33,169 bases of DNA from Geobacter sp. (GCA_018262735.1 JADFDR010000006.1:1-33169); one strand, 5' to 3'. Positions 2,757 to 31,343 are shown, counted from the stretch's first letter. Notes: a model not told the origin generated them from the letters alone. Numbers and translations: made by a program.

Positions 2757-3869
2757 ATGAAAAAACAATCAAATGCGCAGAAGTTCTTGTCCTTCTTGAT
2801 GTTCGCTGTAGCGGGTCTTTGGCTTGCTCCGACGGACGCTCAGGCGGGTCATTGGAACGTGTTCTTTGATCTTCGTCCGACGGTGCTCGACGGTGGTCAA
2901 ACTGGTCCGACCGCAGGCTGCGGCACGATGTTCGTAAACACCGATACGCCACTTGGCGCGGGCAACTTTTCGCGCTGCGCAGGCGGTGTGCCGGGTGGCG
3001 GTGTGGATGCTCGCTCTGGCGACGCCAATCACATTGTGCACACCTCGGTCACCTTCAATGCAGGGAAGGGTCCTTCGGGCGGTGAATACACGCTTCCGGC
3101 TTGGGCTTGGAATGGTGGCATGGTGCTTCGCTTTAACGATGCCGATGGAAACGGTGTTCCGGCAAACGGCGAGGCAGTGAGTCTCATTTGGTTCTCAAAC
3201 GAGCAGCACACGCGAACCGCAAACATTCCGCTTTACGGCGGCGATGTGCGCGTTCATATGCATACACGCGCTGTGATGGCAGATGCGCCGAGTGCAGTGA
3301 ACTGCCCGGCCACGATCGGAGCTGTGGCTCCGCAAGGCGCTCATGCTGTCACTTGTATGGGTTCGTACACTCCTGCGACTTATCAAGCGAATGGTACGTG
3401 GAACACGGCAAGCAATCGAATCGACTGGAGTGCAACCATTCTTTCCGGAACGGCACCCAACGCGATTTACTCCGGACAAATGCGAAACACGCATAACTTC
3501 GGTTATGTCGATTGCACGAGTTCAGCGAACGGTTGTAGCCAAGGTTCTTTGAGCGTAGGTCTCAACTGGAAGGAAGGTTACACGAACTGGAATGTGCGAA
3601 AGATACAGGGTGGAAATGTAAATTCGGGTCCGCTCAGCGCGTTTAACTTTACGGGAACGGTGAACTTCTCCACGGCGACCTCTTCGTTGTACTTCTCGAC
3701 TGCCAGCGATCTCTTGGCGGATAGTGCAAACTCGGGTGGCACTCATAACTCGTGGTGGAGACTCAAGGGTGTTTTCAACCAGGCTCTTTATGTTCCGGAG
3801 CCGGGAACCGCACTTCTTGTGCTCGGTGGTTTGATCGGGCTCGTCGCAAGCCGACGTCGCCAGAGCTAA
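2757..3869 (+). CDS. PEP-CTERM sorting domain protein
   Basis: N-terminal signal peptide ending DAQA; C-terminus YVPEPGTALLVLGGLIGLVASRRRQS. Confidence 0.92.
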   Translation: MKKQSNAQKFLSFLMFAVAGLWLAPTDAQAGHWNVFFDLRPTVLDGGQTGPTAGCGTMFVNTDTPLGAGNFSRCAGGVPGGGVDARSGDANHIVHTSVTFNAGKGPSGGEYTLPAWAWNGGMVLRFNDADGNGVPANGEAVSLIWFSNEQHTRTANIPLYGGDVRVHMHTRAVMADAPSAVNCPATIGAVAPQGAHAVTCMGSYTPATYQANGTWNTASNRIDWSATILSGTAPNAIYSGQMRNTHNFGYVDCTSSANGCSQGSLSVGLNWKEGYTNWNVRKIQGGNVNSGPLSAFNFTGTVNFSTATSSLYFSTASDLLADSANSGGTHNSWWRLKGVFNQALYVPEPGTALLVLGGLIGLVASRRRQS

Positions 3870-3895
3870 AGCCAAAGCAAGAAGTTGCAAGATCA

Positions 3896-3927
3896 AGCGC
3901 CCGTGGGTTTCCACGGGCGCTTTTTTT
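3896..3927 (+). terminator. Rho-independent terminator
   Basis: AGCGCCCGTGG-GTTT-CCACGGGCGCT followed by TTTTTT. Confidence 0.92.
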
Positions 3928-4065
3928 GCCTGGATGTGCTGGCGCTTTGGAGCGAGCGAGGAAAGTCATTTTTCTCGCGCTGCGGTGTTCTTCGCGTGAC
4001 GGGTGTTCTTGCGTCGCCGTGTTGCGGGCTTTCCTTTGTGGGGGCGCGAGAAGAGGCGTAAGAAA

Positions 4066-4157
4066 ACTCGGAGCATTCCTGCTTTTAAAAGACAAGTCAT
4101 GCTGTTTTCCGTCGGTGAAGAATTTTTGATTCGCTCGAAAAGGGAATGGATCCGAGG
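4066..4157 (-). repeat. Dispersed MITE/REP-like element, copy E2
   Basis: Reverse complement reads CCTCGGATCCATTCCCTTTTCGAGCGAATC...CTTCACCGACGGAAAACA...GGAATGCTCCGAG. Confidence 0.75.
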
Positions 4158-4169
4158 CTCCCTAGAAAC

Positions 4170-4278
4170 CCTCGGATCCATTTTCTTTTTCGAGTATTCT
4201 GGCAAACCCGGGCTGATGCTTTCCGTCGGTGAAGATCGGCTCGCATTCATCGAGCAAAATCAAGTCGAGCTTCCTTCG
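4170..4278 (-). repeat. Dispersed MITE/REP-like element, copy E3 (outer end approximate)
   Basis: Reverse complement reads GAATGCGAGCCGATCTTCACCGACGGAAAGCATCAGCCCGGGTTTGCCAGAATACTCGAAAAAGAAAATGGATCCGAGG. Confidence 0.8.
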
Positions 4279-4310
4279 GCGGATCCGCCGACGCGGCGCT
4301 TGCGAGATCC

Positions 4311-4436
4311 GCTCTCTTCGCACCCGCCGCGTTTGCATCGCCTGCGGAACTCCGACGTTGACGCGCGCGAGATCGCTCTCTTCGCACCCGCCGCGTTTGC
4401 ATCGCCTGCGGAACTCCGACGTTGACGCGCGCGAGA
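4311..4436. repeat. Perfect tandem duplication, 62-bp identity with 64-bp period
   Basis: GCTCTCTTCGCACCCGCCGCGTTTGCATCGCCTGCGGAACTCCGACGTTGACGCGCGCGAGA at 4311-4372 and 4375-4436. Confidence 0.95.
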
Positions 4437-4439
4437 GTC

Positions 4440-5750
4440 TTAGCGGCGCTTGCGGGTGTTTTTCTGGACGAAGACGAAGTTGCGTCCTGCGCCTTTGGCG
4501 CGATAGAGCGCTTGATCGGCGGTTTTGAGCACCTGCTCGGGATCGGCGTCGCGCGAATCGGCCATGGCCACACCGATGCTGACGGTGACACTGAGGCCGC
4601 GCCCACGTTCGCGCACATCGTTTTCGATGCGGCGTGTCACTTTGCTTTTTTCCTTGGGCTTTTCTTTGGGTTTTTTTTGGGGACGCGCGGCGCTGCGCAA
4701 GGTGAAGCGGCTCTCTTCGATCTCTTCGCGCAGCGCTTCGAGGTGGGGGACGGCATCGTCGAGATCGCGGCCCGGAAAGACGATCGTGAACTCTTCTCCG
4801 CCATAGCGAAAGGCTTGTCCGCCGCCGCCGACTTGAGCAAGGCGACTTGCGACGAGTTTCAAGACCTGATCGCCGACGTCGTGGCCGTGGCGATCGTTGA
4901 AGCGCTTGAAGTGATCGACATCGACCATGGCGATCACGTAGCGGCTTCCGAGGTTCTTGAAGGTTTCGTAGAGCGCGCGCCTTGCAGGAAGGCCCGTGAG
5001 TTCGTCGCGGTAGGCAAGCGCATACGAAAATTCGAGTACGGAGAAAAAGAGAATGATTCCCGCGAGCGCAAAATGGATTTGCAGCGAAGTGCCGAGGGCG
5101 AATTCGCGAAGTCCGAGCGTGCTTGCGAGAAAGGCCCAGAACAAGCCTGCTTCGACGTGGCTGCGTCGCACGAGAAGCGCGAGCGCCAGCACTGCGACGG
5201 AAACGGATCCGACCAGCATGACCATCTGCGGTGTCGCGCTTGCCTGAATGGAGTTTGCAACGAAGGCGGGCGCGAACTTCAGGATTCCGTCGAGCGGGCG
5301 CATTTGCAAAAGTGCGCCGAGCGGTTTTTCGAAGCGCGACAACGCGCCGAATAACACGAAACTTTGTAGTGCGATCCAACCTGCGAACGAAATGCCCCAT
5401 TTCCCAAACACGCCGCGGTCTTGCATGGCCGCAAGCAACAGGAAGTTGAAGGCGATGACGAGGCCAAGGCTGTGAAAGAGCAGGGCCGTCGACGCTGCCG
5501 GCGTTGCTTGCCCGAGCAGAGTGCTGAGCGTCGCATAAGCGAGGCCGAGAGTTGCCGTCGCAAAAACGACGCGCCCGCGATGAAACCGCCACGCGAGAAA
5601 GAGCAGAAGCACGAAGAACATCGGCAAGAAGGTGTCGAGCCAGGGTTCGATCTTCGCCACGAATTTTGCATTGCGAACGAGGAAGAGCGCCGCGAAGAAA
5701 AGAAAGCCCGACGGAAAAAAGAGATCCCAGACGAGTTTACGAAATCGCAT
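4440..5750 (-). CDS. Membrane-anchored GGDEF protein (putative diguanylate cyclase)
   Basis: MRFRKLVWDLFFPSG start; multiple TM segments; DELTGLPARRALYE...MVDVDHFKRFND...FRYGGEEFTIVFPG. Confidence 0.9.
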   Translation of the reverse strand: MRFRKLVWDLFFPSGFLFFAALFLVRNAKFVAKIEPWLDTFLPMFFVLLLFLAWRFHRGRVVFATATLGLAYATLSTLLGQATPAASTALLFHSLGLVIAFNFLLLAAMQDRGVFGKWGISFAGWIALQSFVLFGALSRFEKPLGALLQMRPLDGILKFAPAFVANSIQASATPQMVMLVGSVSVAVLALALLVRRSHVEAGLFWAFLASTLGLREFALGTSLQIHFALAGIILFFSVLEFSYALAYRDELTGLPARRALYETFKNLGSRYVIAMVDVDHFKRFNDRHGHDVGDQVLKLVASRLAQVGGGGQAFRYGGEEFTIVFPGRDLDDAVPHLEALREEIEESRFTLRSAARPQKKPKEKPKEKSKVTRRIENDVRERGRGLSVTVSIGVAMADSRDADPEQVLKTADQALYRAKGAGRNFVFVQKNTRKRR

Positions 5751-14593: not shown

Positions 14594-16939
14594 CTAACCC
14601 GTAAAGCGGAAAAACGCGACGGCCGACCAGGTGCAATCCGTCGGAAGACGAGAGCCGAGTTTGCGAATGCTGTCGGCCCAATGCGCGCTCAGGTTCCAGT
14701 CTTTCGGTGAAGCCGCTTTGGCGTAGGGCAGACTTTTCCAAAGTGCGGGGAGCCAGTCCGGACGCGGTTTGCCTTGCGTATCCAGAAGGATCGGTCGACA
14801 CTTTTTTGAGTCGATCGCCAGTGCGAGCAAGCCCGCGCCACTTTGTCCGAGCTGCGGGATGTCCAGCAAGACGGCGCGCCCGCGCGGTCCGTCTTCGAGC
14901 TCGAGCAGAAGACCTTCGACGAGGGGATGTCCGCTTGCGAAAAATTCGAGTTCGTCGCAGGCAATCGCTTCGTTGCGATCAAAAGTGCCGAGGAGTCGTG
15001 CGCCGCCGGACACGCCGGGCAGAGAATCGATGCGCGCATGCGCGCCGATTTCGACGTAAAAACGCGCCGCACCGCCTTTTTCAATCACATCGAAGCCGAG
15101 TTCGCGCGCCGCTTCGATGCAAAAGCGCTGCGTGAGCTTCTCGAGATCTTGGGGCACGAGCGCAAGGAGCGCTTGCGCCTGATGGGCGTCGTAGCCGTCG
15201 CGATAATAAACCTGCAACGGAGTTTGTGCGTTCACGGCACGCGCAGTGCGCACGCGCTCGATCCATGCATCGATTTCGATCGATGGCGATCCCTGCAACG
15301 CGGCTTCGAGTATGGCTTGTGCGCCGCTGAGCGCGAGATCGAGCCCCGCGCCCGGCGTGGCAAAGAGATCGAGTGCTTCGTAAACATCGGCGAGATCGAA
15401 CGGGACTCCCTTCCGACGGAAATACACGATTTCGACCGGCGTTTTGCGTCCGATGCGATCGAGGCGTCCGATGCGTTGTTCGAGCACGACGGGGCTCGTC
15501 GGCAAATCGTAGTGGATCATGCGCGCGCAGAACTGAAAGTTGCGACCTTCTTCGCCGGCTTCGGAACAAAGCAAGAGCGACGAAGCCGAATCTCGAAACA
15601 ACGCGAGATCGATATCGCGCTGTTCGGAAGACATTTTTTCGTGGAACACAAAAACGCGTACCTTCGTTTCGGCTTCGAGATAGCGCTGCAAGGCAAGCAG
15701 CGTTTCGACCTCGTGAACGAACACCAAAACTTTTTCCGATCGCTTGCGCCAGGATTTGGTTTGTTCGCGAAGCCAGCGCGCACGCGGATCCTGTTTGACG
15801 CGCGCGACAAGATCGCTCGGCGCCTCGGCAAGGTTCGAAAAATCCAGGTCGACGGCAAGCGGTACGCGCGGAGGCAGCCCGCCGATGTCTTGGCGACGCA
15901 CGGCACTTGCGCAAGGAATAGCCGCGCGTCCTGCACGCAATTCGCGCTCGAAATCTTCGTAACTCGAAAATGTGTCGGGATGCAGAAGGCTTAAGAGTTG
16001 AAAGAAACCGGCGCGATCGGCTTGAAGCGGAGTCGCGGTAAGCAAGAGCACATGCTTGGCGACGTGAATCCGCGGTGCGAGCGCGGCGCCGATCGCGGAA
16101 TCGACCAAACGGTGCGCTTCGTCGACGACGATCAAATCGAGCCCGGCTTCGTCGGCGAAATGTTGCAAGGCCGGTTGATCGAGCAAGGCCTCGTGTGCAA
16201 CGACGGCGTATGGATGCACTTCGAACGGGTTGACGCCTTCGCCATAATCGCGCGACACACTTTCGACTCGCTCCGCGTCGAGAATCACAAAAATTTGATG
16301 GAATTTCCGATAGAGCTCGCCGAGCCACTGCACGACAAGACTTTCGGGGGCCACGATCAAGACGCGTTTCGTGCGACCCGTGCGAATCAGTGCCGAGAGG
16401 ATCAAGCAGGCCTCGATCGTTTTTCCGAGGCCCACTTCGTCGGCGAGAAGCCAGCGCACGGATTCACTGGCAACGGCCTGGCGCGCGACATGGAGCTGAT
16501 GCGGAAAAAGTTCGATGCGTCCGCCAAGGAAACTGCCGAGGCCGCCTGCTTCGCGCAATTCCGTCAAGTGCAGTCCGTCGATGCGGTTTCGAAATGCGGA
16601 AAGAGAATCGAGGCGTAAACTTGCTAGACGTTCGAGCGGCGTGTCCGGCGGCGCAAGCGGCCAAAGTTCGGCATCGGCGATTTGGCGTCCGTCGCGCAAG
16701 AGATACGCAAAGTCGTGTACCTCGGCGATTTCGACTTCTTCGCCGGTTTCGAGAATCTCGGCGCGTTGCCCGGGTGCGAGGATGAGTCGCGTGAGTCCAC
16801 TTCCTTCGACGGAGAGAGTCAGCTCTTGATCGGCACGCGGAAAATAGGCGTGCAAGAAGCGTCCGTCGACTTTCTGGACGATGCCGACGCCGAGTTCGGC
16901 GTTGTAGGGATGCGTTAGCTTATGACCCGGGCGCCACAC
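14594..16939 (-). CDS. SNF2/RapA-like ATP-dependent helicase (GTG start proposed)
   Basis: VWRPGHKLTHPYNAELGVG; LLADEVGLGKTIEACLIL; VVDEAHRL; LLLTATPLQ; LLLCSEAGEEGRNFQFCARMIHYDLPTSPVVLEQRIGRLDRIGR. Confidence 0.88.
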   Translation of the reverse strand: MWRPGHKLTHPYNAELGVGIVQKVDGRFLHAYFPRADQELTLSVEGSGLTRLILAPGQRAEILETGEEVEIAEVHDFAYLLRDGRQIADAELWPLAPPDTPLERLASLRLDSLSAFRNRIDGLHLTELREAGGLGSFLGGRIELFPHQLHVARQAVASESVRWLLADEVGLGKTIEACLILSALIRTGRTKRVLIVAPESLVVQWLGELYRKFHQIFVILDAERVESVSRDYGEGVNPFEVHPYAVVAHEALLDQPALQHFADEAGLDLIVVDEAHRLVDSAIGAALAPRIHVAKHVLLLTATPLQADRAGFFQLLSLLHPDTFSSYEDFERELRAGRAAIPCASAVRRQDIGGLPPRVPLAVDLDFSNLAEAPSDLVARVKQDPRARWLREQTKSWRKRSEKVLVFVHEVETLLALQRYLEAETKVRVFVFHEKMSSEQRDIDLALFRDSASSLLLCSEAGEEGRNFQFCARMIHYDLPTSPVVLEQRIGRLDRIGRKTPVEIVYFRRKGVPFDLADVYEALDLFATPGAGLDLALSGAQAILEAALQGSPSIEIDAWIERVRTARAVNAQTPLQVYYRDGYDAHQAQALLALVPQDLEKLTQRFCIEAARELGFDVIEKGGAARFYVEIGAHARIDSLPGVSGGARLLGTFDRNEAIACDELEFFASGHPLVEGLLLELEDGPRGRAVLLDIPQLGQSGAGLLALAIDSKKCRPILLDTQGKPRPDWLPALWKSLPYAKAASPKDWNLSAHWADSIRKLGSRLPTDCTWSAVAFFRFTG

Positions 16940-16949
16940 GTCGGTGTAC

Positions 16950-17795
16950 TCATTCCACTTCGACGCGCAACAGCAGCACTTGCTCGTCGCTTGCGTTTCC
17001 GACGGAAGCGCCACTCGTTATGCTCGTTGTTTTTTCCGAGCGGGTTTGATCGATGCCGCCGATCGTCAAAAGTTCGCCGGGCACGAGCGTGACCGTGGTG
17101 ACCGCGCCAGTCGTGTGAACGACACCGCTTGATGTCATTTCTTCCTGGTAGGGATTGATGTCGATTTGCACGCGACCGTCGCCGAGAATGTGCGGCCTTG
17201 CGTCGAAACCGGATGCGGCACTCACAAAGGCAGTCGTGTCGTGGTGGTGCCCGTGGTGCGCACCGTGGATGGAAATGGGCATGGTGGTGCCCGTGCTGAT
17301 CGTCGCGGAATTGCCTTCGAGCACCCGCACCATGCTCGAAAAGTCGAGTTTCTGCGTGCGATCGATCTCGCCGACGCGCACTTCGACCTGGCTTCCCGAG
17401 CCGATCGGAAGTGCATTGCCGATGCGGAAATCGCCGGCTTCGACACTCCAGCGCACATCGAATCCGGCGGCGTGAAGCTCTTGGGTGCGTTTCATGGCCG
17501 AGTGAATCACGACGCTACGCAATTTTGCGTCTTGCTGACTTAGAACTTGCAGCGCGGTTTCGATGCCCTCGGCACTTCCGACCAACAAGAGTGAGTTTGT
17601 GCGCGCATCGAGCGTGGCGCTGCCCTCGCTGCCGATGGCTGCTTCTGCGATCGGCAAGAGTTCTTCGGCTGTGCGGTGCTGGGCCTTGTAGAGATGGACC
17701 TTGCGCTCTGCCTGGGCCGGGCCGCTGGCAAGCAGCAGGGCAAAGAAAAGCGTGAAAAGCCATCCGACACGAACTCGTGTTGCTTGATTGCGCAT
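16950..17795 (-). CDS. Short secretin-domain protein (type II/III secretin-like), exported
   Basis: Signal peptide MRNQATRVRVGWLFTLFFALLLASGPAQA; HLYKAQHRTAEELLPIAEAAI...LDARTNSLLLVGS (N-domain); GRVQIDINPYQEE...VTLVPGELLTIGGID (secretin core-like). Confidence 0.75.
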   Translation of the reverse strand: MRNQATRVRVGWLFTLFFALLLASGPAQAERKVHLYKAQHRTAEELLPIAEAAIGSEGSATLDARTNSLLLVGSAEGIETALQVLSQQDAKLRSVVIHSAMKRTQELHAAGFDVRWSVEAGDFRIGNALPIGSGSQVEVRVGEIDRTQKLDFSSMVRVLEGNSATISTGTTMPISIHGAHHGHHHDTTAFVSAASGFDARPHILGDGRVQIDINPYQEEMTSSGVVHTTGAVTTVTLVPGELLTIGGIDQTRSEKTTSITSGASVGNASDEQVLLLRVEVE

Positions 17796-17882
17796 AGAGC
17801 CTCCGTGGATTTTCTTGGGTTTGCCCGCCAATTTCTTGCAGGAAAATCTTGCAGGAGATTGGCAGAGAAGCGATCGTTTTTT

Positions 17883-17950
17883 GGAGCCTCGGATCCATTC
17901 CGTTTTGAGATCCTTTTGCAAACCTATCGGACGATGCTTCGCATGTCACC
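17883..17950 (-). repeat. Dispersed element, copy E7, truncated
   Basis: GGAGCCTCGGATCCATTCCGTTTTGAGATCCTTTTGCAAACCTATCGGACGATGCTT matches the reverse complement of the element's 3' half. Confidence 0.65.
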
Positions 17951-19959: not shown

Positions 19960-20781
19960 ATGATTAGAATGCACTTTATGCGCGCAGAGCGATTCCTACA
20001 TCGTCTTGGTCTTTTCTCGATTTGCTTGGGGTTGGCGGCCACGGTTTTTTCCGAGGCGCATGCAGCCGGGCCGCGTTGCGTGGCGTGGCCGGGTGAAATT
20101 TCGCCTTTGCCGACGGTAGATCACGAAGATTCGCTGCGTTCCGAGTGGGCGAGTCGCCGTGCCGAAGAGCTTGCAGCGCTGGCGCGCACCGTCGAGAAAA
20201 GCAATTCGAGCGAGGCGTATCGTGTTTGGCAGCACGTTCTTTGTCTGGATTCTGAAAACGCAGCAGCGCGCAAAGCCGTAGCGACGATTTCGCTCGTTCA
20301 GGTGCATCAACCGCAGGTGCTGCAGGTCGCGGCGGAGCCGACCGTAGAGCGTGTCGCGCGTGTCGAGGATGCATTTGCCAATCTTGCACAGCCGATTCGT
20401 GTCGGGCCGCAACGTGCCGTGGAAGTGGCGCAGTCTGTGCCCGAGCCAAGCGATCGTGCGACGGACGACGTGGATCGCAAGCTCGGGCAAGCCAGCGCCC
20501 TCGTGCGCGAAGCACGCTTTCGCGAGGCGCTGGCGCTTGCCAAAGAAGTGCAAGCGCAGTTGCAGGGCAAGCGAGGCGAGCCGGGGACGAGTGTGCGTTT
20601 CGTGCGTGCAGCCGTACTCGCTGCGACGGCGGAAGTGGCGCTTGGTCGCAAGCTCGAAGCGCGCGCGAGCTTTGAGCGTGCGCTCGAAATGCAGCCCGGG
20701 CTCGAACTCGATGCTGCCACGACTTCGCCCAAAGTGATTCGCGTGTTTCGCGGCGCCAAAGTTTTGAGGGGGCAAGAGTGA
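19960..20781 (+). CDS. Secreted TPR-like hypothetical protein
   Basis: Signal peptide MRAERFLHRLGLFSICLGLAATVFSEAHA; helical repeats (ASALVREARFREALALAKEVQAQL; EVALGRKLEARASFERALEMQPGLELD). Confidence 0.7.
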   Translation: MIRMHFMRAERFLHRLGLFSICLGLAATVFSEAHAAGPRCVAWPGEISPLPTVDHEDSLRSEWASRRAEELAALARTVEKSNSSEAYRVWQHVLCLDSENAAARKAVATISLVQVHQPQVLQVAAEPTVERVARVEDAFANLAQPIRVGPQRAVEVAQSVPEPSDRATDDVDRKLGQASALVREARFREALALAKEVQAQLQGKRGEPGTSVRFVRAAVLAATAEVALGRKLEARASFERALEMQPGLELDAATTSPKVIRVFRGAKVLRGQE

Positions 20782-21755
20782 TGGGTGACTCGATTTTGTG
20801 TTTCCCGTTGCGCTTTGCGACTCCGTGCGCGGCGATTGCCTTGGCTTTCGTGAGCGCTTGCGCTTCCACTTCGCAGGATGTTCCGACGGGGCCGGCACGG
20901 GTTTCCGTGGAAGTGCACCGCGGCCTGGCCAGCGTCAGTACGTGGCCGACCGAAACACTTCCGCGTGTCGAGATCGTCGTCGATGTTTCTTCCTCGATGC
21001 GAAGCTCTCTTGGCGGCGTGGCGCGCGTCGATGCGGCACGTTCCGGCGCAATCCAACTGATGGAGTCGCTGCCGTCCGGCACAGAAATCGGGTTGTACGC
21101 GCTTGGTCACACACGGGGTGGCGCCTGCACGGCACCGCAGCCGCTGACCAATGCGCTCGAGATCGAGCGTCGCGAGACACTCGTAGCGCGTGTCGCATCG
21201 TTGCGTTCGCAAAGCGAAAGCTCGCTGGCTGAGACACTGCACGCCGTACACAAAGAAATGTCGGAAGTGGGAGCGTCGAGCCGAGCGCGCGTCGTGGTGT
21301 ATACCGATCTCGACGATGGAAATTGCGGCGGAGATTTCTGTGCTGCGGCGCAGGAGATCGTCGGTGCGGGAGGGCAGCTCGATCTCGTTTTGCTTGGCGT
21401 CGCGAGCCCGCCGGCTTGTTTGCGCGGTTTGACGCCGGGCGGAGTGCCGCCGGGTCCGTTGGCGACGACGCTCGTGCCGCCTTCTCCGACGTATCAACTC
21501 GTCGAAGTGGAGCGCACCTCGACGAGTTTCGAAGAGGGAACGGGCGAGCAGACCGTGACTGGACGAACGGGAGGGCAATCCGTCGAAGTGCGAGCGGGTC
21601 TCGTGATGGTGACCGTCGATCTCGACACGCCCGAGCGCATTGGCCCGTTCAACGCGCCGGCAGGCAAGGAAACCCGCGTGCGCGTGCTCGATTTTCCGAC
21701 GTCGAATCCACCGCTGCGTTCCTGGCGTGTTGAGCGCGAAGGATTCGATTGGTAG
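20778..21755 (+). CDS. VWA-domain lipoprotein
   Basis: Lipobox-like AFVSAC; MIDAS VEIVVDVSSSM; VVVYTDLDDGNCGGDFC; overlaps upstream stop. Confidence 0.82.
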   Translation: MMGDSILCFPLRFATPCAAIALAFVSACASTSQDVPTGPARVSVEVHRGLASVSTWPTETLPRVEIVVDVSSSMRSSLGGVARVDAARSGAIQLMESLPSGTEIGLYALGHTRGGACTAPQPLTNALEIERRETLVARVASLRSQSESSLAETLHAVHKEMSEVGASSRARVVVYTDLDDGNCGGDFCAAAQEIVGAGGQLDLVLLGVASPPACLRGLTPGGVPPGPLATTLVPPSPTYQLVEVERTSTSFEEGTGEQTVTGRTGGQSVEVRAGLVMVTVDLDTPERIGPFNAPAGKETRVRVLDFPTSNPPLRSWRVEREGFDW

Positions 21756-22009
21756 AGGATCGACGGTATGTGTCGACGGATGCAAGCGGGCCGAGGGTCT
21801 GAAAACCTACGCGGAAGATTTTGCAATGGATCTCAGCATCTTGCGCGAGAATGACGATATTCACAAAACTCGGTAAGGGTTCTTCCTGTGTGTCCGTCCA
21901 TGTGTGCGGGGCTTGGTCGGTGCCGCAATGTCACCAAGGGGCGAGGGCGACCATGGCGTACTCCACAGCGATTCGATGTCACGCAAAGCGCGTTTCGATT
22001 GAAACAAAA

Positions 22010-22954
22010 ATGTGTCGAGCGATGAGCGCGCTCGCTTTCGTTTCCTTTTTTTGTGTCACCTCCTTGGGGCGCGCGGAGGATGCGGTGCCTGCGGCGGAGC
22101 CGAGCGCGTCCACGGCTGCATCCCGAGAGGCAAGCCCCGTGCGAGCAGCACCCACCGACGCTGCGCCCGCTGCTCGTCCGATCGCAAGTGTTGCGCGTGC
22201 ACGCGTACGCGAAGAAGTTCCCGTTCCTCCGGCGCAAGAGCTTTTGAGTCAAACGTTTACGAGCATTTACGGAATCAACACCAGTCATCTCGTGCAGATC
22301 ATCAATCACACCGATGCGGGCGTGACACAGCAGGCGCGCATTCAAGTCATTCGCAAGAAGATCAACGGTCGCTTGCACGGACTTGCGAATTTTACGTCGC
22401 CGGATCATATGCGCGGCATGCGTATCCTCACCGTCGAGAACGTCGATCGCAACGATGACTATTTTGTGTATCTGCCCGCATTGCGTCGCGTGCGTCGTGT
22501 GGCCAATGCGCAGCGTGCAGATGCGTTTCTTGGCAGCGATATGACTTTCGAAGACATCGAACCGAAACGCTTGAACAATTTCGAACTCATTGGGCGCTCC
22601 TCGATGAAGATGGACGGGGAAACCGTGCATGTGGTGATGGCGCGACCGTTGTACGAATCGGCGTACGATCGAGTCGAGTTTTTTATTGCTGAAAAAGATG
22701 CTGCCTGGCTCGAGCATCGCTATTACCGGCGAGGTTCCTTCAAGCCGTTCAAAATCATCCGTGCGCCGAGGGAATACATGGAAGTGGTGGACGGCTATGC
22801 GTTCCCGACACGAGTTTTTGTTCAAGATCTCGAAAAAGGCTCGCTGACCGAGTTGCGAATGCTCGATCTCAAGGTCAATCCCGATCTCGACGACAAACTT
22901 TTTTCCGTCGTACAGCTTGAAAAAAATGCCTCGATTCCAGGTTTGGGAGAGTGA
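22010..22954 (+). CDS. Outer-membrane lipoprotein-sorting (LolA-like) family protein
   Basis: Signal peptide; ITNH-like repeats; GMRILTVENVDRNDDYFVYLPALRRVRRVANAQRADAFLGSDMTFEDIE, typical of this family. Confidence 0.82.
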   Translation: MCRAMSALAFVSFFCVTSLGRAEDAVPAAEPSASTAASREASPVRAAPTDAAPAARPIASVARARVREEVPVPPAQELLSQTFTSIYGINTSHLVQIINHTDAGVTQQARIQVIRKKINGRLHGLANFTSPDHMRGMRILTVENVDRNDDYFVYLPALRRVRRVANAQRADAFLGSDMTFEDIEPKRLNNFELIGRSSMKMDGETVHVVMARPLYESAYDRVEFFIAEKDAAWLEHRYYRRGSFKPFKIIRAPREYMEVVDGYAFPTRVFVQDLEKGSLTELRMLDLKVNPDLDDKLFSVVQLEKNASIPGLGE

Positions 22955-22957
22955 CGG

Positions 22958-24766
22958 ATGGACGTCGCGGATCCCTTCGCGCTTTGCGCAAATCCGGCTG
23001 CTTATGTTGCGCGACCTGCGACGGAGCGCATCCTGGCGCAACTGGAAACGTCGGTGACTTTGCGCCGTCGTCCGACGTTGCTCGTCGGTCCGCCCGGAAT
23101 GGGCAAAACATTTCTTTTGCGCTGCTTGGAGCAGAGGCTCTCGGATCGACTCCGTACGGTGTATGTTCCGATTCCTACGCTTTCTCCGACGGAGCTTTGT
23201 CGCTGGGTGCTGGCTCAGCTTCGTGAGGAAAGTGGCCCCGACCCCGCGCTTGCACTCGCCAATGTGAGTGCGCGCCTTCAATCTCAACATTCCGCGTTGC
23301 TCCTGCTGGTGGACGACTTCGCATCGATGACGAAGGAGGCGCTACGCCAGTTGCTCGAACTTTGGTGGGTTTCCGAAGGCGGCTTCCGCCTGCTTTTTGC
23401 CAGCATCGAGGACGATCGCTACGCCGCCTTGTTGCCCGAATTTGAGGGAAGCGCCGAGACCGTCTCTTTCTGCGAGCCGATGACACCGACGGAAACCACA
23501 GAATACATTCGCACGCGATTGCAGCGCTCCGACGTAGAGGAGGAAGTGAGTGCGCGTTTTGATGACGCACTTCTGGCGCGGATCCAGCGCGAGACGGGGG
23601 GTGTGCCGGCGTGGGTAAACGCGGCGGGCGAGGCCGTGCTCTTTGCGACGCGCTATAGGAGGGAATTGCCGGAGGAGGATTTGTCGACGCAGACGGAAGA
23701 AGTTCGTCACGAAAAAGTGTCGGATACCACTGCGTTCGAAGGGAAACTCGATTGGCCGCCAGCCGAAGACGATTTCGCCGCCGCGCGTCGCGGTCGTCAC
23801 CGCAAGAAAGAAGCCAAGTTGCAAGCCGAGGAAGAAACGCGTCGCAAGGCTCTGGCCGAGGAAGATGCAAAGCGTCGCGCGGCCGAGGAAGCGAAGCGCC
23901 GCGCGTTGGAGGAAGAAGCGCGTCGCAAGGCTCTGGCCGAGGAAGATGCAAAGCGTCGCGCGGCCGAGGACGCAAAGCATCGCGCGCTGGAGGAAGAAGC
24001 GCGTCGCAAGGCTCTGGCCGAGGAAGCGAAGCTCCGTGCAGCCGAGGACGCAAAGCATCGCGCGGAAGAAGCGGAACGCCGACGAGCGATCGAGGCGGCG
24101 GATGCGAAGCGCCGCGCGTTGGAGGAAGAAGCGGCAGCGCCGATCTTGCCGCCTGCGCTGCTCGAAGTGCCTTCCGCAAAGGGGGCGCCCGCAGCGCTCG
24201 AAATTCCTGCGGCGGAAAGTCGTCCAACCGAGAAAAGTGTCGGAGCGAAGCTTTGGCTTGTTGCCGCAGGGCTGGTGCTTGCGTTCGGAGCGGGTCTATT
24301 GGTTTTGCATTTGGATCGCACACCGGATCGCGTGTCGAATGCATCTACACAATCGAATGTCGCAGCGACGCCTGTTGCCGGTGCGGAGGCGCGCAAGTCG
24401 CTGAGCCCTGCTTCGGGCGCGACGCAATCCTCTGCGGTGCTGCCGGGTGCGCAACCCACGGAATCGACGACGACCGACATGGCGCAAGATCGTTCGAGCC
24501 TTGTCGCTGCGCGAGGTGGTGAGCCTTCGCCTTTGAACGAAACGTCACTCTCGGAGTCGCTTGCGCTCGAGCCTGTCTTGGTGAGTGTGAATGCGACACC
24601 GTGGGCGATCATCGAGGTCGATGGAATCGAATTTGGCGAGACGCCGCTTGCCGAAATTCCGCTTTTGCCCGGGCAACACAAATTTGTGGCGAAAATGCCG
24701 GGTGGGCGCGTCGTCGAACGTACGATTCTTGTCGATTCGAAGACGCAGCAAATCGTTTTCGATTGA
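22958..24766 (+). CDS. ExeA/GspA-like AAA ATPase fused to charged coiled coil, TM helix and C-terminal PEGA domain
   Basis: PTLLVGPPGMGKTFLLRCL (Walker A), ALLLLVDDFASM (Walker B); (A/E)EEARRKALAEEDAKRRAAE repeats; TM LWLVAAGLVLAFGAGLLVL; VSVNATPWAIIEVDGIEFGETPLAEIPLLPGQHKFVAKMPGGRVVERTI (PEGA). Confidence 0.85.
   Translation: MDVADPFALCANPAAYVARPATERILAQLETSVTLRRRPTLLVGPPGMGKTFLLRCLEQRLSDRLRTVYVPIPTLSPTELCRWVLAQLREESGPDPALALANVSARLQSQHSALLLLVDDFASMTKEALRQLLELWWVSEGGFRLLFASIEDDRYAALLPEFEGSAETVSFCEPMTPTETTEYIRTRLQRSDVEEEVSARFDDALLARIQRETGGVPAWVNAAGEAVLFATRYRRELPEEDLSTQTEEVRHEKVSDTTAFEGKLDWPPAEDDFAAARRGRHRKKEAKLQAEEETRRKALAEEDAKRRAAEEAKRRALEEEARRKALAEEDAKRRAAEDAKHRALEEEARRKALAEEAKLRAAEDAKHRAEEAERRRAIEAADAKRRALEEEAAAPILPPALLEVPSAKGAPAALEIPAAESRPTEKSVGAKLWLVAAGLVLAFGAGLLVLHLDRTPDRVSNASTQSNVAATPVAGAEARKSLSPASGATQSSAVLPGAQPTESTTTDMAQDRSSLVAARGGEPSPLNETSLSESLALEPVLVSVNATPWAIIEVDGIEFGETPLAEIPLLPGQHKFVAKMPGGRVVERTILVDSKTQQIVFD
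23840..24082 (+). repeat. In-frame tandem repeat, 81 bp (27 aa) period, about 3 units
   Basis: CGTCGCAAGGCTCTGGCCGAGGAA recurs at 23840, 23921 and 24002. Confidence 0.9.
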
Positions 24767-24842: not shown

Positions 24843-24876
24843 AAAGCCCCTTCGAACTTTTCTTCGAAGGGGCTTT
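24843..24876. terminator. Bidirectional terminator between convergent genes
   Basis: AAAGCCCCTTCGAA-CTTTTC-TTCGAAGGGGCTTT perfect 14-bp stem. Confidence 0.92.
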
Positions 24877-27880: not shown

Positions 27881-29488
27881 TCAGCGGGTTTGCGTTGAGC
27901 GCACGCGACCGCTGGGGCCGGGTGGCAGAAAAAGATTCATCTGCACGATCCCGATATCGACCATGTCGATCCGACCGTCTTCGTTGAGATCGAACCGATC
28001 GCTATAGCCGCCGTTTGACAGATACGGGAGGATGCTTTCGAGATCGCCGCGACGGTTGGTGAGCATAGGATTGAAAGCGGGCGAGACGATGCCGTCGTTG
28101 TCGAAATCTGCGTCGCAGGCGTTGCCAAAGCCGTCGTCATCGGAATCGAGTTGCGAGGGGTTCGGGATCTCCACGCAATTGTCGAAGCGATTGCGATGTC
28201 CGTCGCCGTCGAGATCGTCGGGGAGTGCCGTGCTCGGACGCGCGATCTGCATCAAGGGATCGCCAACGTAAACATTCATCCAGCTCAAATGCGGGATGCT
28301 TTGATAGAAGGCTTCGGCGGCGGGACGTCCGAGCGCATACTCGCGAAAGAAGATTTGAGGACGTGCTACACCGTTGAGTGACGGCTCGGCGACGTGTCCT
28401 GCTGCGCCGGAAGCGCCGAGCCGGATCAAATCTGCAACGAGAGATTGGCCATACTCGGGTGGGGAAACGAAGCTGCGTGCATTGGTGCTCACGATATCGA
28501 TGGCGACGGAGCGCGGTGCAAATCGTCCCGGAACGATTTGCTCATCGATCTCGCCGTACGTGGAAGTGCCAAGGCGATGCGTGTCATTGCTACCCCAAGA
28601 TGTGTAGCCCGCGATTTCCTCCGAGGTGAAAAAGAATTTGGCTTCGCGATCGTGCAATGTGGGAAGCCTCATGGCCTGAAGCACGGCGGCCGTGGATTGC
28701 AAAAGAAGCAGATTTGCACCGGCGCGTGCGAGAGGTTGCTGCGGATCTTCGTCGACGACGAAGCGTGCTGCTGCGGGAGCGGGCGCGACGGCGGAGTCGA
28801 TCAAGTTGCGGATGTCGCGCGGGATTTGGGTTTCGGGATCGAGCGGGGTTGGATAGCCCGCGATGCGCGTCACCAGATAACGCAATTTTGAGTCGGGCTT
28901 CTGTTTGCGAAATTCGGCAAAAGATTGCGATGCGTTGTAGAACGGGTTTTGTGCATCCAGAATTCCGGGGCTGCCTTCGAGTTGCGAGCCGAGCACTGCG
29001 ATTTCGGCATCGACGGAGGCCTCGCTGCTACGAACGATCAATTCTTCGAGTGGCGTTGGCGGAGATTGTGTGACGCGGAGCGGAATGCCCGGCATGAGGA
29101 CGATGAACTGAATTTTGTTTGTTGGATCGCGTGCCGCGAGTTCTTGCAAAAGCGGATCGCGAATCTGGCGTTGGTACTCTTCGCGCGAGATTCGTTCGTC
29201 GCTGCGTTTCGAAAGATCCGGCGTATAGGCGGGCAGCGGAAGTTCGACGAAGTGAGCGTCGGGAATTTTGCGTGCGTTCTGGTAGTAACGACCGACCGCG
29301 CGCGAAAGTTCGTTGTTGCCGTTGACGACGACGAGCACCTCCGAATAGTCGATGCGCGGCGCTTTGTACAAGGCTTCGAAAGTTGTTCCGAATTCGGAAT
29401 CCGAATTGCAACTTGCACCGAGCGTGAGCAAGGTGAGTCCCAGGGCGAGCGCAACTTTTTGCAAACGCTTTCGTGCAATCAAGATCAT
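27881..29488 (-). CDS. TIGR03790-like lipoprotein/secreted protein with Asp-rich TSP3/dockerin-like C-terminus
   Basis: [13 protein letters not shown] lipobox; [50 protein letters not shown]-terminal [42 protein letters not shown] and [14 protein letters not shown]. Confidence 0.78.
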
Positions 29489-29669
29489 GAGGTTCCTCGG
29501 GTCGGCATCGCCCGATACTATCCGTTTGGAAGAGCGCGTTGCTACGGGCTTCTGCCCGCTTCTGCGCTGACGATCCGCGTTGTGCCGGGTAGAATGCAAG
29601 CCCGCTACCGCTCGGTCTTGCGGTGCCGATTCGTTCCTGTCGAATCGGTCATGAAACAAGGAGAGTACT

Positions 29670-31343
29670 TTGGCCCAGTTTGTTTTTACGATGCACGAAG
29701 TTCGCAAGGTCGTTCCGCCCGATCGCATCATTCTCGACGGAATTTCGCTTTCCTTCCTGTTCGGAGCGAAGATCGGCGTGATCGGACACAACGGCGCCGG
29801 CAAGAGTTCGCTGCTTCGCATCATGGCGGGTTTGGATCCTGACATTCTCGGTGAAGCGCGACCTGCACCCGGAATTCGTATCGGTTATTTGCCGCAAGAG
29901 CCCACGCTCGATGCGACGAAAGATGTACGCGGAAATGTGGAAGACGGCGTGGCGGAAGTGCGCGATTTGTTGCGTCGCTTCGAAGAGGTGAATGCGAAAT
30001 TCGCCGAGCCGATGGACGACGATGCGATGAATCAACTCCTCGCCGAGCAGGCCGAGCTGCAAGATCGCATCGACGCTGTGAATGCGTGGGAGATCGATCG
30101 CACGCTCGAAATTGCGATGGATGCGTTGCGCCTTCCGCCGGGCGATGCGGACGTGACGAAACTTTCCGGCGGTGAGCGACGGCGCGTGGCGCTTTGCCAG
30201 TTGCTTTTGCAGAAACCGGATTTGCTTTTGCTCGATGAACCGACGAATCATCTCGATGCGGAGTCGGTGGCGTGGCTCGAACGTTTTTTGCAGGAGTACC
30301 CGGGCACCATCGTTGCGATCACCCACGATCGTTACTTCCTCGACAATGTGGCGCAGTGGATTCTCGAACTCGATCGCGGTGAAGGCATTCCGTGGAAGGG
30401 AAATTATTCGTCGTGGCTCGATCAAAAACGGCAGCGTCTTGCTACCGAAGAAAAGCAAGAGAGTGCGCGCCAACGCACGTTGCAACGCGAACTCGATTGG
30501 GTGCGCTTGGCGCCGAGCGCGCGGCACGCCAAGAGCAAAGCGCGCATTCGGCAATATGAGGAACTGCTGAATCAAGGTCCGAAAGAAAACTATGGCAGCT
30601 CCGAAATGACGATTCCGCCGGGACCGCGGCTCGGCGACGTGGTCGTCGAAGCCAAGAACGTATCGAAGGCGTATGGCGATCAACTTTTGATCGACAATCT
30701 GAACTTCGCGCTTCCGCCGGGTGGCATCGTCGGTGTGATCGGACCGAACGGTGCCGGGAAGACGACATTGTTTCGCATGATCGTCGGTGCCGAGAAACCC
30801 GACTCGGGCGCGTTGCGTCTTGGTGAAACCGTAAAGCTTGCCTATGTGGATCAATCGCGCGACGCGCTCGATCCCAAGAAAAACGTCTGGCAAGAAATCA
30901 GCGGCGGCGAAGAGGTGTTGCGCGTCGGAAACCGCGAGGTGAACTCACGCGCTTATGTGTCATCGTTCAATTTTCGTGGCGCCGATCAGCAGAAACTCGT
31001 CGGCAATCTTTCCGGCGGAGAACGCAATCGCCTGCATCTTGCGAAACTCCTGCAAAGCGGCGGCAACGTGCTCTTGCTCGACGAGCCGACCAACGATCTC
31101 GACGTCGACACCTTGCGTGCGCTTGAAGATGCACTCGTGAACTTCGCGGGTTGCGTGGTCGTGATTTCGCACGATCGCTGGTTTCTCGATCGCATTGCGA
31201 CGCATATGCTCGCGTTCGAAGGCGATAGCCATGTCGAATGGTTTGAAGGCAACTATCAAGAGTACGAAGCCGATCGCAAACGTCGCCTCGGTGCGGACGC
31301 CGATCAGCCGCATCGTCTGCGTTACAAGAAGCTCACTGCGTAG
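29670..31343 (+). CDS. ettA: Energy-dependent translational throttle protein EttA (ABC-F), TTG start
   Basis: Two ABC cassettes ([27 protein letters not shown]), [25 protein letters not shown]; full-length EttA-like architecture; AAGGAGAG upstream. Confidence 0.93.

Follow-up and report, generated by a model that had tools for sequence, protein, structure and literature searches.

AAA, VWA and TPR proteins are encoded together in the MoxR/Bat operons. GspA consists of an AAA domain, one transmembrane (TM) segment and a periplasmic wall-binding part; it has a partner, GspB, and GspA-GspB fusions exist (PMC9239104; PMC4098917). ExeA and ExeB assemble a secretin (PMC4098917). TPR and VWA genes clustered with those of TolQ/TolR-like motors have been described as putative force transducers (PMC12204202), and a Borrelia cluster of a LolA-like protein and an ABC ATPase has been proposed as an export system (PMC13078400).

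The locus analysed here encodes TPR, VWA lipoprotein, LolA_like and AAA-TM-PEGA proteins. It lies in a 33-kb contig (the window, 33,169 nucleotides) of a 1.97-Mb metagenome-assembled genome (MAG) that is 74.6% complete. The module's lineage is a class of uncultured bacteria that has been little studied and is known almost solely from metagenomes.

Organization of the operon and its products

The four ORFs all run in the same direction on the plus strand, from 19960 to 24766. Genes 1 and 2 overlap at 20778-20781, as an earlier note on this DNA had stated: gene 1 ends with a stop at 20781, and the start codon of gene 2 is GTG 20778 or ATG 20781. The 3-bp spacing of genes 3 and 4 (22955-22957) is also borne out. 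Genes 2 and 3 are separated by about 254 bp, a gap absent from that note and counted from the likely gene 3 start, ATG 22010 (alternative 22022); a consensus scan found no terminator above chance in it. The same kind of scan placed a terminator-like hairpin with a 14-bp stem at 24843-24876, the putative end of the operon, between gene 4 and a convergent peroxiredoxin gene; its stem is the longest in the scan, which overall found no more such sites than shuffles do. Upstream the operon is flanked by a divergent fumarase gene.

Other genes in the window include one for a SNF2/RapA-like helicase (14594-17014, minus strand), with a RapA match of E=4.5e-113 that is nevertheless below the cut-off and similarity to DpdE and DISARM DrmD, and one whose TIGR03790 product carries thrombospondin type 3 repeats and ends in a region of weak dockerin likeness (27881-29845, minus strand). 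Between the fumarase and helicase genes, a short secretin-like protein of 323 aa is encoded (16950-17921, minus strand; Secretin E=1.1e-8, Secretin_N E=2.8e-7). A tie of the operon to this gene was rejected because the gene has no homologue in any relative locus examined.

Gene 1 (19960..20781) encodes a secreted protein with only weak TPR similarity in Pfam. An alignment of 17 sequences shows a signal peptide, an N-terminal helical region with a conserved CxAWPGE/two-Cys signature, and C-terminal TPR-like helices that end in an SPKV motif. The AlphaFold model is all-helical (mean pLDDT 81); a fold search against the PDB gave no match at E<=0.001, the weak matches being mostly to TPR proteins.

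Gene 2 (20778..21755) had been read as a VWA lipoprotein, and this is borne out by a VWA_2 match (Pfam, E=5.9e-8) and by a lipobox (VSAC, followed by AS) whose Cys is invariant in 17/17 VWA proteins. In the window, position +2 is occupied by Ala, a residue that favours the outer membrane under the E. coli rule, and the product is predicted to be an outer-membrane lipoprotein. The sequence has a MIDAS-like DVSSS/ESS/D pattern and a C-terminal beta-sandwich with a DFP motif. In the AlphaFold model (mean pLDDT 79.5) the VWA fold likewise precedes a beta-sandwich, and a PDB fold search with this model returned VWA domains. The window and most relatives keep a DxSxS-type MIDAS, which is degraded or lost in some.

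This last observation bears on the idea that the operon specifies an adhesion or force-transmitting module, in which the AAA ATPase, in place of TolQR, would be the inner-membrane motor that pulls on the VWA protein, itself an adhesin on the surface or an anchor in the outer membrane. The force transducers proposed for TPR-VWA-TolQ/TolR clusters (PMC12204202) and the presence of gliding species in the phylum of this class are in keeping with such a role. However, the MIDAS is not kept in all members, the VWA protein is a lipoprotein without a TM segment, no adjacent TolQ/TolR-like gene was found and gliding genes were not seen, so that we consider this role distinctly unlikely.

Gene 4 (22958..24766) encodes an AAA_22 domain (residues ~1-250; Pfam E=1.5e-14), a Glu/Ala/Arg-rich linker, one TM segment (~432-450) and a PEGA-like C-terminus (~540-602), which supports the earlier description of an ExeA-like ATPase with one TM segment and a PEGA domain, the latter predicted to be periplasmic. 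The TM segment is found at the same place in most relatives; in L095, L096 and L105 it is not above threshold or the sequence is cut. The PEGA match is below the Pfam gathering score (E=0.028; 14.8 bits against 20.8) and, since the domain is sub-threshold, a Pfam PEGA search of the host genome returned nothing passing E 0.001. The assignment is firmer than this score because the region aligns with relatives at 49-57% identity, and the more distant relatives in L107 and L127 pass the gathering score. Similarity of the ATPase to the ExeA/TIGR03015 group, as suggested earlier, stands (E=7.6e-10, NCBIfam), but membership of TIGR03015, the PEP-CTERM family, does not, the match scoring 38.7 bits where the cut-off is 324.5.

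The ATPase domain also shows weak nSTAND similarity, and sets of TPR, VWA and NTPase proteins are common in regulatory systems. Both points would fit an envelope sensor, in which the VWA, TPR and PEGA domains read the state of the envelope and signal inward to an AAA/STAND-like ATPase. We regard this as improbable: there is no output domain or consistently linked regulator, no PADLOC system matched (only trivial P-loop matches were returned), and a sensor leaves the LolA partner and the LolA fusions described below unexplained.

Conservation of the gene set in relatives

A check of the neighbourhoods in relatives, as the earlier note had proposed, shows that the gene set is kept together. In 80 genomes of the order, matches to gene 2 and to the ATPase domain adjoin each other. 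Across the class, full-length matches to the VWA profile were found in 16 of 91 genomes, some of them split by contig ends (G000, G003, G004, G006, G009, G016, G022, G027, G033, G040, G045, G046, G049, G062, G063 and G088), and TPR matches, full-length or split by contig or frame, occur in the identical 16. The TPR and VWA genes are adjacent wherever a contig end does not cut the locus, and their ends usually overlap. Partial TPR-family pieces without a VWA gene are found in G014 and G069.

Scans by tblastn and profile place TPR, VWA and ATPase/PEGA genes in one direction in L091, L092, L094-L097, L099-L101 and L103-L105; an ATPase-PEGA gene also follows TPR-VWA in the window and twice in L199. 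L103 starts inside the VWA gene, its TPR gene being on another contig, L130. These loci come from incomplete MAGs, in which contig ends cut L093, L099, L100, L102, L103, L105, L107 and L130, and their genes were called with a simple ORF caller rather than taken from curated annotation, part of the neighbours being annotated. The PEGA-TM protein of G040 has lost its ATPase, and in G045 the 1.7 kb that remain before the contig end contain no ATPase. Linkage of the module genes far exceeds chance.

In several loci the cluster is downstream of thrS-infC-rpmI-rplT-pheS-pheT-ihf-merR (identities by Pfam); the window copy is not at this site and lies beside the fumarase gene instead. Divergent small genes lie between merR and the operon in L091 (4171-5779) and at the same place in several relatives, one encoding a Yip1-domain membrane protein and two having no Pfam family. 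Many genomes carry the ATPase after merR without TPR-VWA, which argues for a role of the ATPase that is independent of these proteins. In a tree of the ATPases, operon and stand-alone members are not separated, so no history of gain and loss can be read from it.

Outside the class, a sample of 379 genomes from across the phylum yielded no further full-length member of the VWA family; below the 135-142 bits of G088, the next profile scores in this sample are 90 bits or less, the level of VWA proteins in general. For the ATPase-PEGA alignment, the best match listed outside the class has a score of 100 bits and is confined to the ATPase part. From these scores, both the VWA family and the subfamily with the AAA-TM-PEGA layout look restricted to the class within the phylum sample.

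LolA proteins and domain fusions

Gene 3 (22010..22954) encodes a periplasmic LolA_like protein (PF17131, E=3.5e-33; 115 bits against a gathering score of 30) that matches none of the models for LolA proper in Pfam or NCBIfam. Its PDB relatives are 3bk5, 9tp6 and 4z48; two PDB relatives are named outer membrane lipoprotein-sorting proteins. The window has its LolA gene between the VWA and ATPase/PEGA genes, as do G040 (L098, whose PEGA-TM protein is the one without an ATPase), G004 (L102, where the contig ends soon after LolA) and G088 (L199, two tandem copies). In L107 (G046) LolA precedes the ATPase and the contig begins there. G088 belongs to another order of the class and its proteins are ~27-35% identical to those of the window; it has the four-gene order twice, with different flanking genes (HDOD and TetR among others), and the order is partly found in two other genomes. 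Over L199 1-10813 the whole operon is duplicated in tandem with an HDOD gene between the copies, and L198 has a third TPR-VWA pair with a convergent LolA gene.

LolA is missing from most copies of the module, and therefore LolA-type carriage of lipids or lipoproteins cannot be the core function. The earlier proposal of a conserved, unnamed envelope gene set thus stands, but not as a constant set of four: the near-invariant core is TPR, VWA and ATPase-PEGA, and LolA is present in a subset only.

In a tree of 26 LolA proteins, in which the non-operon members were chosen by similarity to gene 3, the operon and fused LolA proteins all lie on one side of a branch (support 91/85), a separation given by 0/500 label shuffles. 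With 20 more distant paralogues added, the group is retained (89/84) and gains one row, from G013, which belongs to an ATPase-LolA ORF. Large proteins (~800 or 1550 aa) are often encoded beside the nearest non-operon LolA genes, and the size and context of these proteins suggest that they are RND transporters. Gene 3 does not group with the paralogues beside these putative RND-type genes in the trees and there is no RND-type gene next door in the window. By the trees and gene orders, LolA is outside the core and, where present, is of its own lineage tied to the module ATPase.

These data also bear on whether the four genes are chance neighbours, unrelated envelope genes that happen to be adjacent. 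The 254-bp gap between genes 2 and 3 and the lack of LolA in most copies are what such an origin would predict. Against it, the gene order recurs, among other flanking genes, in a genome from another order of the class, the operon LolA proteins group together and domains of the set are fused, and we consider chance very improbable indeed.

One fusion is in L106 (G013), where a single ORF encodes AAA_22, one TM segment and LolA_like (E=1.6e-17); L221, from the same genome, has this layout with a weaker ATPase score. Another is in L108 (G048, 2878-5376), which combines AAA_22, LysM and a TPR region similar to gene 1 and appears to be a wall-binding version of gene 4. The fusions put LolA, TPR or a wall-binding domain at the usual position of PEGA, on the predicted periplasmic side of the ATPase. 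Double-AAA ATPases with PEGA are encoded in L127 (1485-5239) and L129 (6953-10750), followed by a ~207-aa unknown protein and a Kdo/WaaP-type LPS kinase gene, a second linkage of the ATPase family to envelope genes.

The LysM domain in L108, the single TM segment and the likeness of the ATPase to the ExeA/TIGR03015 group, with the ExeA-ExeB precedent in secretin assembly (PMC4098917), would also be expected of a helper of GspA/ExeA type, which would open the peptidoglycan or scaffold it so that a secretin of a type II secretion system (T2SS) or type IV pilus can be inserted, VWA and TPR proteins replacing GspB or a pilotin. However, gene 4 has no peptidoglycan-binding domain, GspB was not found, and no secretin or pilus genes were recognised in the neighbourhoods examined, part of whose ORFs were annotated; the window's own short secretin-like gene is not shared with the relative loci. 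A secretin helper is therefore an unlikely explanation of the module.

Proposed mechanism and comparison with known systems

The linkage, the shared architecture, the fusions and the class restriction in the sample make the module itself well supported. The reading that we prefer, and to which we give about an even chance, is that the four genes form one conserved trans-envelope ATPase module, a cytoplasmic ATPase with periplasmic partners that delivers, positions or assembles some hydrophobic or lipidated molecule at the outer membrane or through it. We infer the physical complex, the ATP-driven action, its direction and its cargo. A GspA/ExeA-like AAA ATPase in the cytoplasm would cross the inner membrane once and show its PEGA domain to the periplasm, where its partners would be the secreted TPR protein as a scaffold, the lipid-anchored VWA protein and, in some lineages, a LolA-fold carrier docked to the ATPase. 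ATP-driven changes in the ATPase would pass through the single TM segment to the periplasmic parts, and the hydrophobic or lipidated molecule would be assembled, positioned or delivered there. The simplest such molecule would be the VWA lipoprotein and its complex; no candidate substrate, secretin or outer-membrane channel linked to the module was found in the neighbourhoods examined. With no substrate found, the earlier note's suggestion that the set moves or assembles lipoproteins or a surface structure stays a conjecture. A more specific proposal is a non-ABC route for lipids or lipoproteins powered by the AAA ATPase, which from its place in the membrane would pass lipidated or hydrophobic cargo to a dedicated LolA-type carrier, and this in turn to TPR-VWA at the outer membrane as a complex; it seems to us a long shot.

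If the preferred reading of a trans-envelope ATPase module is true, the operon would represent a further kind of ATP-powered trans-envelope machine, in which a GspA-like ATPase is combined with exchangeable periplasmic modules (PEGA, LolA, LysM-TPR) and cytoplasmic ATP hydrolysis is tied to the handling of lipoproteins or lipids at the outer membrane.

The earlier note recognised no named system in this combination. Literature searches found no description of the gene set, and the module lacks one or more of the features that define each of GspA, the PEP-CTERM ATPase, LolA, Bat/MoxR and TolQR-VWA. The module shares its AAA, VWA and TPR set with the MoxR/Bat operons, but its AAA protein is AAA_22/ExeA-like without a MoxR model match in Pfam or NCBIfam and its VWA protein is a lipoprotein. 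The XrtA/PEP-CTERM ATPase is of the same broad AAA family, but gene 4, besides its low score, has a TM segment and PEGA, and no exosortase/EPS locus was seen. With the Lol pathway (LolCDE-LolA-LolB) the module has in common the LolA fold and the combination of an inner-membrane ATPase, a periplasmic carrier and a lipoprotein. In contrast with that pathway and with the LolA_like carriers elsewhere in these genomes, its ATPase is AAA and not ABC, and gene 3 belongs to PF17131 rather than LolA proper and is not beside an RND-type exporter.

In composition, the nearest published system is TPR-VWA-TolQR (PMC12204202), where a TPR gene also adjoins genes for a VWA protein of the periplasm and for an energy unit in the inner membrane. 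In the module the ATPase replaces the proton motor and the VWA protein is a lipoprotein rather than TM-tethered. In its proposed mechanism, the module has its nearest relative in GspA/ExeA. The module differs from it in having PEGA (or LolA, or LysM-TPR), with no PF01471 in gene 4 by Pfam, and in its partners, which are TPR, VWA lipoprotein and LolA; no gspB or T2SS genes were recognised among the Pfam-annotated neighbours. The likeness lies in the cytoplasmic AAA ATPase, single TM segment and large periplasmic part, and in the small conserved cluster with partner fusions.
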